From contig JADQBR010000025.1 of assembly GCA_016278515.1 (NCBI GenBank), positions 1-50,858 of the forward strand: a stretch of DNA of 50,858 bases. Direction: 5' to 3'. This document shows, piece by piece, positions 6,334-13,080 of the stretch. Positions within the stretch are counted from its first letter, which is position 1. Each line of letters begins with the position of its first letter. The stretch is from Bacillota bacterium. Its GTDB lineage: Bacteria; Bacillota; JADQBR01. The translations under genes and the position numbers were made by a program. Under the pieces are notes generated by a model. That model made no database searches. It saw nothing but the letters and a program-made list of their open reading frames with translations, and was not told where the DNA came from.

Positions 6334-7710
6334 CTAACCGTTGTAAAACTCTATCTTTATTGCTGGTTCCTCCATAACGCAGACATACTCGCAAATACCG
6401 CATCCCGTACATTTATCTGTAACTATTACGGGATACTGAAATTCCTCCATGTAGATAGCTTCATCTATCAAAGGGCAATTATTATAGCAAGAACGGCAAA
6501 TGTCGCCCTGGTGTGCATAACAGAGTTTCTCATTTACCACTGCAGTTCCAATCTTTACATCATGCACATCAATTATCTCTAAAGCTCCCGAAGGACACAC
6601 AGGAGGACACTCCATGCATAAGGAACAAGGCTGTTCTCTAGGCCTAAAATAAGGTGTACCTAAAGCAAAACCTTGGTCTGCATGGGCAATGAGCAAGGTC
6701 TTCTCTGGGCATATTTGAATACACTTTCCGCAACGGATACATCTAGCCAAAAACTCTTCCTCAGGCCCGGCACCCGGTGGTCTAAAAACTTTTGGACCAT
6801 GAGTACCTACCAAGTTTATACCAGCATAAAGTGTACCTGTGGCCATAAACACCCCACTTGCTTGTAATAATTTACGCCGTGATAACTTCACCCCTAGCCT
6901 TTTACCCTCTGTTCTATTTGTATCTATAGCAGACTTTGATCCTCTTCCAATTTTCCAAGTAAAGCATAGTGCCTTAGTCGGACATACATCCAGACATTGC
7001 CCACACTTTGTGCAGAGCGCAGAATTTACATATTGTTGTGCATCCTGACCAAGAACTATTTCTTCTAATGCACCACAACAGTGGTCACAATTATTAAAAC
7101 ATGTCCGACACTTAACACATTTCCTGTCATCAAATTTTACTGTCAAAGGGCTAAAACGCCCTAATATTGCATAGAAGTTACCAAGTGGGCAGACAAGCCT
7201 GCACCAACCTCTTCGATAACCTGCAACTTCCAAACAAACTATTACTATAAGAATAAACACTTCAATTCCCAAACCCACCACAAGACTTCTAAATAAGATA
7301 TTCATAGGTGATACCATTTGAAACAACGGAATACTAACTAATAAGCTTCCAACTAGTATTAGCGGCAAAGCATAATAATATTGATTCTGTGTCACTTTTA
7401 CCCTTTTATTATTAACCCTTAAGCTACTTACTGCCTCTACTATAAGCCCAATTGGACATATCCAGGCACAGAAAGCTTTTCCTACTACCAAATACATGAG
7501 CAACACCGGAACTGTGCTTAAAATTAAAGTTACAGTAACCCCTTTAGAAGCTGCTACTACCTCTAATGTTGCCAAAGGATCAGTTAACACAATTCCCCAT
7601 ATACTACTTGAAGACAAGTTGCCTATCACAGCAGTTGCACCAAACAAAGGAAGCATAAATAGTAATATTATACCTACCTGCACAAACCTGCGAAACTCTT
7701 TCCACTTCAT
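6334..7710 (-). CDS. NapH-NapG fusion: polytopic quinol-oxidising iron-sulfur protein
   Basis: The 458 residues join two proteins that are normally separate. Residues 1-250 are NapH: about four membrane segments, two CxxxCP motifs (C81-C85, C170-C174) and a polyferredoxin tail (from C198 and from C233). Residues 277-282 read SRRKLL, followed by a hydrophobic stretch to about 302, which looks like the Tat signal that normally begins NapG. Residues 310-458 are NapG/MauM-type, opening with 'RPPGAGPEEEFLARCIRCGKC' at 310-330 and carrying up to four 4Fe-4S clusters. NapGH is known to pass electrons from menaquinol toward NapB/NapA. The gene lies 61 bases after napA across a strong inverted repeat. 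The fusion looks genuine: one frame, no stop, coherent motifs on both sides. Confidence 0.88.
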   Translation of the reverse strand: MKWKEFRRFVQVGIILLFMLPLFGATAVIGNLSSSSIWGIVLTDPLATLEVVAASKGVTVTLILSTVPVLLMYLVVGKAFCAWICPIGLIVEAVSSLRVNNKRVKVTQNQYYYALPLILVGSLLVSIPLFQMVSPMNILFRSLVVGLGIEVFILIVIVCLEVAGYRRGWCRLVCPLGNFYAILGRFSPLTVKFDDRKCVKCRTCFNNCDHCCGALEEIVLGQDAQQYVNSALCTKCGQCLDVCPTKALCFTWKIGRGSKSAIDTNRTEGKRLGVKLSRRKLLQASGVFMATGTLYAGINLVGTHGPKVFRPPGAGPEEEFLARCIRCGKCIQICPEKTLLIAHADQGFALGTPYFRPREQPCSLCMECPPVCPSGALEIIDVHDVKIGTAVVNEKLCYAHQGDICRSCYNNCPLIDEAIYMEEFQYPVIVTDKCTGCGICEYVCVMEEPAIKIEFYNG

Positions 7711-7732
7711 TGCATATATCTCCCTTAAATTA

Positions 7733-7760
7733 AGGTAGCTGCCAATATTGGCAGCTACCT
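7733..7760 (-). repeat. 28-bp perfect inverted repeat between napA and napHG
   Basis: The two 14-base arms (AGGTAGCTGCCAAT / ATTGGCAGCTACCT) abut with no spacer, so in RNA the stem would close with a small central loop. On the minus strand it is followed by TTAATTTAAGG rather than a clean U tract. It looks more like an intercistronic stability element or weak attenuator than a full terminator. It could set the ratio of NapA to the NapH-NapG fusion. Confidence 0.6.
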
Positions 7761-7771
7761 CCCCCAGTTAA

Positions 7772-10039
7772 TTATACTTTTTCTACACGTACTGCACATA
7801 TTTTAAATTCCGGCTCTTTCGAACCCGGGTCAACGGCATCAATAGTAACACTATTAACTAATCTATCTGCTTCAAACCAAGTAGCAAATAACATTCCCGG
7901 TTGAGGTATACCAGGTCTCTCTACTTGAACAGGTAATTCCACAGATCCTCTTCGAGATACCAAACGCACGATATCACCATTTTTTATACCCAACTGCGTA
8001 GCATCCTTTGAATGAACTTCCACATATGATGATGGCACAGCCCTATTTAGCGCTGGGCACTTTCCAGTCATAGTCCCAGTATGCCAATGTTCCAAAATAC
8101 GCCCCGTTGTCAGGCAGAACGGGTACTCCGCATCTGGCATTTCTTCTCCTTCTTTATATGGCCGGGCAAAGATCACGGCCCTGTTGTCCGGCTTGGCGTA
8201 GAAATCTATTTTACCTTTCTCTTTGATATACGGATCCTCTCCACCTATAAATCGACGAACCGTACCTTGTATCCCTTTATGGTCTTTAACCGGCCATTGA
8301 ATTCCATGCGCCTCTTTAAGCGACTGGTAAGTAGCCAGCTCCATATCCGTCCCTGTTGTACACTTTAGATATTCATTCCAGACATCTTCAGGCCCATCAT
8401 ACTGGAAAAGACTCCCATAGCCTAAACGATGCGCAAAGTCAATCAGCATATCCAGATCGGGGCGCGCTTCTCCTGGTGGGTCAATTGCCTTAGCTAAATG
8501 CTGGGTGCGCCTTTCAGTATTACCGTAAACTCCTTCCTTCTCACACCACAAAGCTGCCGGAAGTACCACATCAGCATACTTCGAAGTTAACGTAGGGTGG
8601 TATGTCTCTGCAACCACTAAAAAGGTTTTTTCCAACCCAGGATTATAATGCGTCGCATTAGGTAAGGATTGAGCCGGATTGGTACACATGACCCATAGTG
8701 CCTTCACATCGCCATCTACGCATTTCTGAAATAGTTGCATTGTATGATACCCTGGTTTAGGACTGATCCTATCAGCGCTAATACCCCAAATTTTAGCGAT
8801 CTCTTCACGGTGTTTAGCATTGGCTACTCCACGGTGCCCCGGCAGAAGATGGCACAATGCACCCACCTCCCTGACGCTACCACAGGCACTTGGCTGACCA
8901 GTTAGCGAGAAGGGCGTACTTCCAGGTCTACATATTTTTCCTGTTAATAAGTGTAGATTGTGTAACATATTGTTTGCCCAAACCCCTGCAACCCGTTGGT
9001 TAATACCCATAGTCCACATAGACATGGTGTTTTTACCAGGCTCCGCAAAAATCCGCGCCAATTCCCTAATTCTATCTACAGATAGATTGGTTTTCTTTTC
9101 AGCAAACTCTGGGGTAAAATCCTTAATAAACTCTTTAAATTGATCATAAGTTATTTTTGCTTGCCCGTTAGAAAAACTGGTATGCTTAGCAATAAAATCC
9201 TCATCAGTCAAACCCTCTTCAATAATAACGTAAGCCATGGCATTTAACAGTGCCAAATCCGTTCCAGGTTTAAAAGGTACTGAAATATCCGCAATTTTAT
9301 GGGAACGATGTCTCCGTGGATCCGCAATAATAATCTTCGTATGAGGATCTTGTCTTTTCTTATCCGTTAAACGGGCGAAAAGCACCGGATGGCATTCAGC
9401 CATATTAGACCCAATTATAAAGAAGACATCCGCGTGCTCAAAATCTTCATACGCCCCCATAGGCTCATCCGCACCAAAGGTGGTAGTATAACCCCCAACC
9501 GCACTTGCCATACAAAGCCGTGGATTCCCCTCCACATTATTGCTACCAATGGCGCCTTTGAAAAGTTTATTGGCTACGTATTCCTCCTCTGCCAACGCCT
9601 GACCCGATCCATAAAAACCAACTGAGGCCGGGCCGTACTCATCTATAGCGTTACTAAATTTTTCGGTAATAAGGTTCATTGCCTCTTCCCAGCTTGTTTC
9701 AACAAACTTACCATTTTTCTTCACAAGCGGTTGCGTTATACGATCATCTGCAGTTAATATCTGCGGTAGATAGTACCCCTTTGCACAAAGCAACCCTTTA
9801 TTAACTTCATTATCCGGGTCTCCTTTTACAGCAATTACCTTTCCATTGGTCACTCCTATAAGCACGCCACAACCTGTGCCGCAATAGCGGCAAACCGACT
9901 TGACCCATGAATCCGCATCTGACTTATTTAATTTTTGGGATTCGGTTTGAGTACCTGATTTATTCACTGAGCATCCTGCGGTTAACATAGCTGTAGATAC
10001 TGCACAGGCTTTAATAAAATTTCTTCTTGTAAAATTCAT
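7772..10039 (-). CDS. napA: NapA-type molybdopterin nitrate reductase, Tat lipoprotein
   Basis: A 755-residue molybdopterin oxidoreductase predicted to reduce nitrate to nitrite on the outer face of the membrane. The N-terminus carries a Tat motif (TRRNFIK, 4-10), and the same signal ends in a lipobox (LTAGC, C23), so the mature enzyme should be lipid-anchored. The 4Fe-4S ligands are C50, C53, C57 and C85. The molybdenum ligand is most likely C176 in 'NPRLCMASAV', the NapA context, followed by 'FIIGSNMAECHPVLF'. Formate dehydrogenase and cytoplasmic NasA are less likely given this motif and the napD and napB neighbours. The substrate is inferred from family and context. It lies in the middle of the nap operon, 30 bases after napB. 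Confidence 0.92.
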   Translation of the reverse strand: MNFTRRNFIKACAVSTAMLTAGCSVNKSGTQTESQKLNKSDADSWVKSVCRYCGTGCGVLIGVTNGKVIAVKGDPDNEVNKGLLCAKGYYLPQILTADDRITQPLVKKNGKFVETSWEEAMNLITEKFSNAIDEYGPASVGFYGSGQALAEEEYVANKLFKGAIGSNNVEGNPRLCMASAVGGYTTTFGADEPMGAYEDFEHADVFFIIGSNMAECHPVLFARLTDKKRQDPHTKIIIADPRRHRSHKIADISVPFKPGTDLALLNAMAYVIIEEGLTDEDFIAKHTSFSNGQAKITYDQFKEFIKDFTPEFAEKKTNLSVDRIRELARIFAEPGKNTMSMWTMGINQRVAGVWANNMLHNLHLLTGKICRPGSTPFSLTGQPSACGSVREVGALCHLLPGHRGVANAKHREEIAKIWGISADRISPKPGYHTMQLFQKCVDGDVKALWVMCTNPAQSLPNATHYNPGLEKTFLVVAETYHPTLTSKYADVVLPAALWCEKEGVYGNTERRTQHLAKAIDPPGEARPDLDMLIDFAHRLGYGSLFQYDGPEDVWNEYLKCTTGTDMELATYQSLKEAHGIQWPVKDHKGIQGTVRRFIGGEDPYIKEKGKIDFYAKPDNRAVIFARPYKEGEEMPDAEYPFCLTTGRILEHWHTGTMTGKCPALNRAVPSSYVEVHSKDATQLGIKNGDIVRLVSRRGSVELPVQVERPGIPQPGMLFATWFEADRLVNSVTIDAVDPGSKEPEFKICAVRVEKV

Positions 10040-10069: not shown

Positions 10070-10366
10070 TTATTCCGAAAGCACATGACACTGACGACAC
10101 GGAATATTTTCAGGGTGAGGTGTTTTGGGAGCTTCTCCAACTTCTCCCTGTCGATGACATACTAAACAATCATCTCCCCTATCAAGCTTATGTGGAATAG
10201 GTGGCGGAAAACCTGTTAATACTTCTTGTTGTAATCCTGTTTTTGAAATGTCAGCAATTTCTCCAGATTGAGGTTGACTGCTACACGCAGTGAGTGTCAG
10301 TACCCCTAACATTAATAAAAAAACGCTGCAAACAATAAAAAACAGTAGTCTCTTATGCTGCTCCAC
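10070..10366 (-). CDS. napB: NapB-like diheme cytochrome c lipoprotein
   Basis: A 98-residue product with two CxxCH motifs (CLVCH 67-71, CRQCH 90-94). The spacing and flanks match NapB: 'PPPIPHK' before the first heme and 'TPHPENIPCRQCHV' at the second, where the extra histidines would be distal ligands. NapB passes electrons to NapA. It has a signal peptide ending in a lipobox (LTAC, C28), so like NapA it should be anchored to the outer leaflet. I chose the GTG at 10366, nine bases after AAGGAGG. An ATG 40 codons upstream would add a sequence overlapping the preceding gene and lacking a ribosome site. It is short for NapB, keeping only the heme core. Confidence 0.85.
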   Translation of the reverse strand: MEQHKRLLFFIVCSVFLLMLGVLTLTACSSQPQSGEIADISKTGLQQEVLTGFPPPIPHKLDRGDDCLVCHRQGEVGEAPKTPHPENIPCRQCHVLSE

Positions 10367-10400
10367 GTATCGTACCTCCTTACTAATTATTTTCACTTCT

Positions 10401-10967
10401 TTAATCCAAAGGGTCAATGGCGATGGCCGGCGCAGGAGCAATACATGCCTTAGCACAACAACCGCATCCGGTGCATATCTTGCCATTAACTATGGGAAAA
10501 CCTAAATCTTGAAACTCAACTGCTGAAGGATATTGACTACAGGCGTCTGCACACACTCCACACATTTGGCTATTCCATGCCAAGCAAAGCTCTCTATTAA
10601 TCTTGGCCTTGCCAATTTTGACTTCGCTACCCTCTTCCGGCTCTTCAAGGGCCCCGGTGGGGCAGGCTCTAGTACATTGCAAGCAAAGCGTACATGATTG
10701 ATGTTCAGGTTTTAAATATGGAGTACCGATAGCCGGGCCACGGACAGCGCCAGTAATTCTAACTATATTCTCCGGACATGCATCCACACATGAGCCACAG
10801 CGCTTACAGGTACTTATAAAGGCCAGTTCCTCCAATGCACCAGGCGGCCTAACAACGGACCTTTTAATCTCCATTCTCGAAGCAGCCTCCGCTCCCAGAT
10901 ATTTTACTTCTTGTAACATCAATGATAAAAACTGCCTGCGACCTACATGGGTTTCCGCCAAAGCCAC
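10401..10967 (-). CDS. soluble NapG/MauM-family ferredoxin-type protein
   Basis: The 188-residue protein has four CxxCxxC-type 4Fe-4S motifs starting at C54, C92, about C128 and C165. The 'RPPGALEELAF..CKRCGSC' entry into the first cluster is the NapG/MauM pattern and closely parallels the C-terminal half of the NapH-NapG fusion. The N-terminus keeps a twin arginine (GRRQFLS, 9-15), but what follows is charged and amphipathic, without a hydrophobic signal core. Export by Tat therefore looks unlikely and the protein should be cytoplasmic, as NapF is. It could help load clusters into NapA before export or serve as a second electron carrier. It sits nine bases after napD and 34 bases before napB. 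Confidence 0.8.
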   Translation of the reverse strand: MALAETHVGRRQFLSLMLQEVKYLGAEAASRMEIKRSVVRPPGALEELAFISTCKRCGSCVDACPENIVRITGAVRGPAIGTPYLKPEHQSCTLCLQCTRACPTGALEEPEEGSEVKIGKAKINRELCLAWNSQMCGVCADACSQYPSAVEFQDLGFPIVNGKICTGCGCCAKACIAPAPAIAIDPLD

Positions 10968-10976
10968 TCACCTCTT

Positions 10977-11231
10977 TTAGTTAACGCTAAATTCATCCCC
11001 ACAATGAATATACGCTGGGTATGCACCCAAAACTCCTGGAGCCTCTTTTATATCTTGCTCTATTATCTTACCGGCTTCCTTTAAGGAATGTGTTTCTAAT
11101 ACTAATACAAGCTGTCCCTCTAATATGCTTTCGACCGAAATACCAGGCAGTTTACTAATAGTATTTTTTGCCAAGAGCTCTTGACCTTGTCTGCATTTAA
11201 CAATGAGGCTGGATATAACTATTATGATCAC
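10977..11231 (-). CDS. napD: NapD chaperone for the NapA Tat signal
   Basis: A protein of about 84 residues with the NapD fold pattern: 'VISSLIVKC' at the start, 'ISKLPGISVES' and 'LVLVLETHSLKEAGKIIEQDIKEAPGV' split over residues 39-70. NapD binds the twin-arginine signal of NapA and holds it until the cofactor is inserted. Start choice is uncertain. A longer frame to 11270 adds a hydrophobic tail not seen in NapD. GTG at 11231 gives the right length but has a weak upstream site, while the best Shine-Dalgarno match (GGAAGGTGATC) overlaps it and would suit an ATA codon two to three codons later. It lies 89 bases after the HAO-like gene. Confidence 0.8.
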   Translation of the reverse strand: MIIIVISSLIVKCRQGQELLAKNTISKLPGISVESILEGQLVLVLETHSLKEAGKIIEQDIKEAPGVLGAYPAYIHCGDEFSVN

Positions 11232-11320
11232 CTTCCACAAAATAATTTTTAGGGGAAAAGAGACAACCAAGACTCTCTCCCCCTTTTAGGTAGTTCAAGG
11301 AGGAACCACTTTAAAAAAAT

Positions 11321-12541
11321 TTAGTTTGCTAAAGTATCCAACTCGCTTCCTGTTTCCTTTTCATATTTGAACATTGGATATTCTATCGGATCTATATCAA
11401 GATTCTCCTTAATCCCGGCTTCCAAAATAAGCCGTTCGGCTTCCTCTTTGATGGCAAGATATTTTGCCCAGAGGTCCCCAGCACCATGCCAATGAGTATA
11501 ATCCGGCGAGAAGTGTTGTGCCCCTTTAATGGTGGTAGCATTAGCATATTTAAATAACTCAAACATTAGACTTTCTATATGACTAACATGACTATAACTG
11601 GTGCCCTTAGCATTAAGCATCGGCAGTCCATCTTCATTTAATAATGAACCAGGACTAGGTTCAAGCACACCTTTCTTATATAGGTCTTGTATGATTTGAC
11701 GTGCTGCTTCTACCATGCGGTTGGCTTCTTTCTTAATTTGATTTACATTTTCTCTAGCATCGGCAACATATTCTTCACTATGACACTGCAGACAATTATT
11801 CCACAGCTTCTCCCTACCCTCTTCCTCAAAGTCACCTTTTAATTGAATAATTAAATGTTTGTTGTCAGGGTCAGTGTGACATGTATTACATGTAGGCTCA
11901 CCTGTCGCCTGGGCAACTTGATAATGAACACTTGACTCATAAGCCTCGCGTTGAGGGTGGTCTGGACCCATGTGACAGTTTTCGCATCCATTAGTAAAGT
12001 TTCCAGTTACTACTTGCCCTGCATGTGCTTGTTTCTCCGGTTTAGGTAAATCTGTGACGTGAGCCTGATGACAACTGGTACATGTGTTTCCTACCTTGGT
12101 ATGACAGGCATCACAACCTTGGCTTTGCATAGCAGGCCAAGCATCGAGTAATTTAAAGCGAACATTTTTCTGTGAATAACCTACTGCTTCAACATGTCTT
12201 GTCTGCTTAAATCCTTCCAATTCCTTTTCATGACATTCACCACATGTTTCAGGATCAACCTTAGCAAAATTCTCATATGATAGATCCTCTTCTCCCAAAA
12301 GTTCTGTGCCGTGACAGTTTATGCAGGTTACCCCTTCTTGGCCATGGGCGCTTTCCTGCCATATCTGAAACTTCATTGGCATTTTATCTTTATAGAAGTC
12401 TTCAAAGGCTACGGCATCCGCTTTAGTAGTCCCGGCAGGTATCACAACATTAGCACTTGTAGACAAACTTACTAAGGTAATACCACCAATAACTAAAATT
12501 CCGATAACAATCCATAAAAATCTACTCCATTTTCCTTTCAC
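11321..12541 (-). CDS. heptaheme HAO-like multiheme cytochrome c
   Basis: A 406-residue exported cytochrome with an N-terminal membrane anchor (about 8-30) and seven CxxCH motifs at residues 73, 100, 143, 154, 186, 218 and 250. The central segment (CDACH, CTSCHQAH, CENCHMGPDHPQ) and the HWHG at 350-353 in a helical C-terminal domain are the signature of the hydroxylamine oxidoreductase family. D194-H195 match the catalytic Asp-His pair of HAO. HAO itself is octaheme; here no other cysteines exist, so one heme is missing. There is no CxxCK, so it is not NrfA. It overlaps its NrfH/NapC-like partner by four bases, the arrangement known for the reductive epsilon-HAO type. It probably reduces nitrite or hydroxylamine; this is inference. 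Confidence 0.8.
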   Translation of the reverse strand: MKGKWSRFLWIVIGILVIGGITLVSLSTSANVVIPAGTTKADAVAFEDFYKDKMPMKFQIWQESAHGQEGVTCINCHGTELLGEEDLSYENFAKVDPETCGECHEKELEGFKQTRHVEAVGYSQKNVRFKLLDAWPAMQSQGCDACHTKVGNTCTSCHQAHVTDLPKPEKQAHAGQVVTGNFTNGCENCHMGPDHPQREAYESSVHYQVAQATGEPTCNTCHTDPDNKHLIIQLKGDFEEEGREKLWNNCLQCHSEEYVADARENVNQIKKEANRMVEAARQIIQDLYKKGVLEPSPGSLLNEDGLPMLNAKGTSYSHVSHIESLMFELFKYANATTIKGAQHFSPDYTHWHGAGDLWAKYLAIKEEAERLILEAGIKENLDIDPIEYPMFKYEKETGSELDTLAN

Positions 12542-13080
12542 CTGATTTCTCCCTCCTTTTTAATTTCTCTTGGTGCGTGTCCCACCCACTGGTGGCAAGA
12601 AACACACGCTGCAGTTCCAACGGATGTAGAGTGCGCAATCTGCTGCGTCTCACTATTGGGAACCTGCCTCTTTAAATCATGACAAGCCAAGCAATTTTGA
12701 TCGTCAATTTTACTTCTTGCACGATCCGCCAGTTCGGGTGTCATTCTTCTAAATTCAAAATTAGTGGGCCTAACAACCGAATGGACGTACAGTTCCTTAA
12801 GCTTTCCTGCTTTTACAACCAATTTGTTACCCAAGTTCCGCGGAATATGACAATCTTTGCACTCAGCAACTATACCAGATTCATTGGCGCCGTGAATAGA
12901 ATTCTGCCAAGTACTAACAACCTTATTCATTTCATGGCAGGACTGGCAAAAATCAGTTTGAGAGGTATACTCACTGGCACCAGTCAGGAAAAACAGAGTC
13001 GCCAGAGCCAAACATACAGGCAACAACCACGCAATACGCATTTTAATAAAAGATTTGCTTTGACCCGTTTCTGTTTTCAA
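12538..13080 (-). CDS. NapC/NrfH-type tetraheme cytochrome c, quinol dehydrogenase
   Basis: A 180-residue protein with one N-terminal membrane anchor (about 15-35) and four CxxCH motifs (45-49, 74-78, 130-134, 159-163). The first is followed by the methionine typical of the NapC/NrfH family (CQSCHEM). Such proteins take electrons from menaquinol and pass them to an exported partner. The last four bases overlap the HAO-like gene, so the two are probably translationally coupled and form a complex like NrfHA or HaoC-epsilonHao. It is the first gene of the minus-strand nap operon; 254 bases separate it from the response regulator gene upstream. It may also feed NapAB. Confidence 0.88.
   Translation of the reverse strand: MKTETGQSKSFIKMRIAWLLPVCLALATLFFLTGASEYTSQTDFCQSCHEMNKVVSTWQNSIHGANESGIVAECKDCHIPRNLGNKLVVKAGKLKELYVHSVVRPTNFEFRRMTPELADRARSKIDDQNCLACHDLKRQVPNSETQQIAHSTSVGTAACVSCHQWVGHAPREIKKEGEIR

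Follow-up and report, generated by a model that had tools for sequence, protein, structure and literature searches.

The gene at 6334..7710 on the minus strand of the window (the whole stretch of DNA analysed, 50,858 nucleotides) raises the question of how a single chain composed of NapH and NapG, with a twin-arginine motif in its middle, could be assembled in and across the membrane. The initial annotation had named no strand for this gene but had claimed a NapH-NapG fusion, and one frame does span both families, NapH first and then NapG, in a single ORF with an ATG start that encodes 458 amino acids plus the stop. Residues 2 to 256 matched the NapH model NF007013 with 206 bits, and residues 278 to 453 matched the NapG model NF007012 with 163 bits. 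As both scores lie below the NCBI curated equivalog cut-offs (234 and 269 bits, respectively), we take these matches at the family level.

The NapH part (residues 1 to 256; 6943..7710, minus strand), delimited by its family match and by cysteine conservation, comprises four predicted transmembrane segments (TMD1 to TMD4), two CX3CP motifs (C81/C85 and C170/C174) and two presumably cytoplasmic 4Fe-4S sites (C198-C208 and C233-C243). The NapG part, which runs from the RPPGA motif to the C terminus (residues 310 to 458; 6337..6783, minus strand) and is covered by the NF007012 match, contains 16 cysteines in four 4Fe-4S sites, all of them kept in seven of seven close fusions. Taken over both parts, all 28 cysteines of the CX3CP and 4Fe-4S sites are conserved across these seven closest fusions. 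A search of solved structures returned generic ferredoxin-domain matches alone, with no NapGH structure among them.

A search for the same fusion in other genomes had been proposed as a check, and it identified one-chain homologues. NapH and NapG are present as one chain in 12 genomes, two more distant groups counted in. A relative from the same family carries a one-chain gene with 46% identity over residues 1 to 453, and independent genomes, some of them assembled as a single contig, have a one-chain gene with 44-54% identity and the same junction. A scan of the genome contigs for relatives yielded unfused ones only.

The twin-arginine motif SRRKLL is located in mid-protein at residues 277 to 282 (6865..6882, minus strand; RR codons at 6874-6879), the position given initially. 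The hydrophobic stretch placed there at residues 277 to 302 also exists, but it is weakly hydrophobic and its best-scored bounds are residues 279 to 301. We estimated insertion free energies with an approximate formula that was roughly calibrated (in a poly-Ala segment, about three leucines bring the value to zero), and obtained, all on the minus strand, -1.72 kcal/mol for TMD1 (residues 6 to 28; 7627..7695), -0.83 for TMD2 (residues 58 to 80; 7471..7539), -1.16 for TMD3 (residues 111 to 133; 7312..7380), -2.83 for TMD4 (residues 138 to 160; 7231..7299) and +2.02 for TMD5 (residues 279 to 301; 6808..6876). By this measure TMD5 stands well apart from the other four spans as the least favourable one, and it is presumed to depend on Tat. 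With the same approximate formula, TMD5 is near zero or positive throughout the 12 fusions (-0.24 to +2.03 kcal/mol), and the values of TMD1 to TMD4 are clearly favourable in most of them; the exceptions are G001 and G108, in which TMD1 is no stronger than TMD5.

An RR pair immediately precedes the fifth hydrophobic segment in all 12 fused proteins. Among the seven closest fusions, its spacing to PPGA is constant at 33 residues, and the only invariant positions from C243 to the RPPGA motif (residues 310 to 314) are F250, R278-R279 and P306, the linker and the fifth helix being otherwise variable in sequence. Judged from the sequences, the conservation of the junction is greater than expected by chance. 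That the RR pair is nearly alone in being conserved within a variable junction argues that it is used. Just C-terminal of TMD5, before the NapG domain, lie two positive charges, K307 and R310.

The gene belongs to an operon with the order NapC/NrfH-type cytochrome, multihaem cytochrome, NapD, unfused NapG/NapF-like ferredoxin, two-CXXCH protein, NapA and fusion. On the minus strand, we located the genes for the NapC/NrfH-type cytochrome c (12538..13080; PF03264, E 8.8e-33), for NapD, of the NapA chaperone family (10977..11270; PF03927, E 3.7e-12), for the second, unfused ferredoxin (10401..10967; 112 bits with NapG and 73 bits with NapF) and for a small two-CXXCH protein that resembles a lipoprotein (10070..10486). 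Directly upstream of the fusion lies a napA-like gene (7772..10039, minus strand) for a molybdopterin oxidoreductase of 755 residues with its own RR signal (MNFTRRNFIKACAVSTAMLTAGC); it matched Pfam molybdopterin domains and scored 770-805 bits with NapA models, lower than the curated NapA cut-offs of 930 and 904 bits. The locus thus has a NapA catalytic subunit with a Tat signal and napD alongside it, as in Nap operons, and the gene order from NapD onward is repeated in relatives. The genome also encodes TatC and five TatA-type proteins.

The multihaem cytochrome (406 residues; window positions 11321-12541), which lies between NapC and NapD, has a counterpart with 64% identity in the same-family genome (L056), and no homologue was found in the operons of G345 and G385. 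Between napA and napHG, a strong stem-loop with a 13-bp stem is predicted at 7732-7761 (-24.5 kcal/mol, z -4.4); the intergenic gaps at this place in L052, L054 and L056 measure less than 35 bases, too short for such a structure. A gene for a hydrogenase maturation protease (TIGR00072; 5742-6224) is found directly downstream of the fusion, and also in the same-family genome.

Two proteins of the operon bear on where NapG works. The initial annotation had reasoned that NapG must lie outside to reach NapB. An outside location is plausible, but no operon protein matched the NapB family, which many but not all Nap systems possess, in family-model and Pfam searches, and the candidate for that role is the two-CXXCH protein, proposed from its sequence and from homologues that sit likewise in other nap operons. 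This protein has a lipobox-like sequence, and its true start is probably downstream of the listed ATG. The second ferredoxin contains RRQFL without a hydrophobic stretch, its best N-terminal segment scoring +5.0 kcal/mol, which suggests that it is probably cytoplasmic. Bacillus azotoformans has been reported to have a comparable pair, with a NapG1 devoid of a Tat signal (PMC3475470).

We consider it about 90% probable that the fusion, with NapH and NapG in one chain, is the quinol dehydrogenase subunit encoded by an operon for a periplasmic-type nitrate reductase (Nap) and belongs to the dual Sec/Tat-targeted polyferredoxin type. TMD1 to TMD4 would be inserted co-translationally by Sec, leaving the 4Fe-4S domain of NapH in the cytoplasm, and TMD5, with a hydrophobicity too weak for Sec to keep it, would be released. 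The NapG domain would then fold in the cytoplasm with its four 4Fe-4S clusters, and SRRKLL would pass TMD5 and folded NapG to Tat, giving a protein with five spans, the N terminus inside and the C terminus outside. Electrons would flow from menaquinol through the NapHG module, then probably through the small two-CXXCH lipoprotein, to exported NapA. Assembly of the fusion protein thus probably needs two export machines. Sec insertion of the first spans followed by Tat export of the folded C-terminal domain, as initially put forward, is well supported at the sequence level.

The alternative that survives best, although we regard it as unlikely, is that the RR pair and the weak stretch are the remnant of a once-separate NapG and that TMD5 never crosses the membrane, so that NapG stays in the cytoplasm. 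At +2.02 kcal/mol, TMD5 is indeed too polar for spontaneous insertion by Sec; in several unfused NapGs of relatives, the N-terminal segment lacks RR and a net positive charge comes after it, favouring a cytoplasmic domain, and the second NapG-like protein of the operon has no hydrophobic stretch at all. However, a remnant does not fit well with an RR pair retained in 12 of 12 fusions as nearly the sole invariant part of a variable junction, and weak hydrophobicity of the last span is typical of the known dual-targeted family. Moreover, the Tat signal of NapA places the electron acceptor outside.

We deem it very improbable that TMD5 is an ordinary fifth span and that NapG is exported unfolded, with its clusters assembled outside. 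Five spans with the C-terminal end outside could formally be made by Sec, but we know of no established route for the extracytoplasmic assembly of 4Fe-4S clusters in such proteins. The conserved RR pair and the weak hydrophobicity of TMD5 also argue against this possibility, as does the requirement for Tat of the homologue type that was tested (Tooke et al. 2017, PMC5449189). Finally, although E. coli, W. succinogenes and several of the sampled genomes encode NapG and NapH separately, a merger of two genes by sequencing or assembly error can be dismissed because the one-chain gene recurs, with 44-54% identity, in independent genomes, the same-family and single-contig ones included.

How often such proteins arose is a further question. 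Whether built from NapH or from NapG, the tree splits the 12 fusions into three groups with unfused proteins between them: the Nap-operon group of seven that includes the window protein, a group made of G108, G146 and G405, and the pair G143 and G317. The group of seven has full support in the NapH tree (100/100), but its NapG counterpart lacks such support (60/16). A single clade of all fusions was not rejected by the AU test (p 0.065 for NapH and 0.31 for NapG), and repeated fusion is therefore suggested rather than established. At less than even odds, we tentatively propose that the NapH-NapG fusion, together with its dual Sec/Tat targeting, had more than one origin and that the working side of NapG may differ between lineages.

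Unfused NapGs encoded beside NapH (L058:9231-9830, L066:6355-6963, L068:4163-4738, L030:883-1476 and L063:8832-9362) have a hydrophobic or semi-hydrophobic N-terminal segment without RR, followed by net positive charge. This charge would favour a cytoplasmic NapG in those organisms, and as several unfused relatives have no RR pair, NapG may not lie outside in all lineages. In G298 (L057:7852-9194), the unfused NapH frame precedes and overlaps the NapG frame, the order seen in the fusion, and this NapG has no signal of any kind. Multiple origins, if true, would bear on whether fusion or splitting came first, a question left by Tooke et al. (PMC5449189), and the relatives assembled here, both fused and unfused, could serve to ask how often the handover from Sec to Tat evolved.

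The NapH-NapG arrangement is not without precedent. The initial annotation knew of no description of this route for NapGH, but Tooke et al. (2017; eLife e26577, PMC5449189) described a polyferredoxin family whose members have five spans and an RR pair ahead of TMD5; its type member, Q1NSB0 of delta proteobacterium MLMS-1, is stated to be a NapH-NapG fusion, and they showed its dependence on Tat. In E. coli, MBP or AmiA reporters fused after TMD5 of this protein were exported only with Tat and the twin arginines, the RR-to-KK substitution that had been suggested for the window protein being already part of that work, and membrane insertion was independent of both (PMC5449189). Homologues occur in several phyla and include one from the Firmicute Anaeroarcus burkinensis (PMC5449189). 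We found no other description of the fusion in the literature searched on NapHG and napCMADGH.

The window protein is a further member of this already described dual-targeted kind, and its junction is conserved and looks functional. Compared with Q1NSB0 through the published description of its features, it shows the same NapH-then-NapG order in one chain, five predicted spans, an RR pair directly before a weakly hydrophobic TMD5 and four C-terminal 4Fe-4S sites. Its TMD5 is less hydrophobic than its TMD1, and in the published family the energies range from -3.56 to -0.98 for TM1 and from 0.30 to 1.72 for TM5 (PMC5449189). The MLMS-1 protein differs by a longer N-terminal part, which places TMD5 near residue 355 instead of 279-301 (about 60-70 residues further), and it is credited with three cytoplasmic and four extracytoplasmic clusters, whereas we found two classic sites and two CX3CP motifs in NapH and four sites in NapG. 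The present case is mostly a confirmation, adding from a Nap operon one well-conserved example of this known type of dual-targeted membrane protein in anaerobes of a Gram-positive lineage.

Other systems share some of these features. The quinol dehydrogenase of E. coli and Wolinella succinogenes has the same two families, cofactor motifs and link to NapA, but there NapG and NapH are two polypeptides, not one chain. In these bacteria NapG is equipped with a Tat signal at its own N terminus, and the gene order is G then H, the reverse of that in the window. The actinobacterial Rieske proteins (QcrA), which the initial annotation had invoked, are likewise single chains with the first spans inserted by Sec and the last by Tat, but their fold is unrelated, and they have three spans with a 2Fe-2S domain. 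The gene order around NapA is matched by the nap operon of Desulfitobacterium hafniense DCB-2, NapDFBAG (Dhaf_1286-1290; PMC3306737), in which NapD, an NapF/G-like ferredoxin, a NapB-like protein and NapA are followed by an annotated NapG (Dhaf_1290) at the place of the fusion; the gene called NapB there occupies the position of our two-CXXCH lipoprotein-like protein, and the window operon differs by its additional upstream NapC/NrfH-type and multihaem cytochromes.
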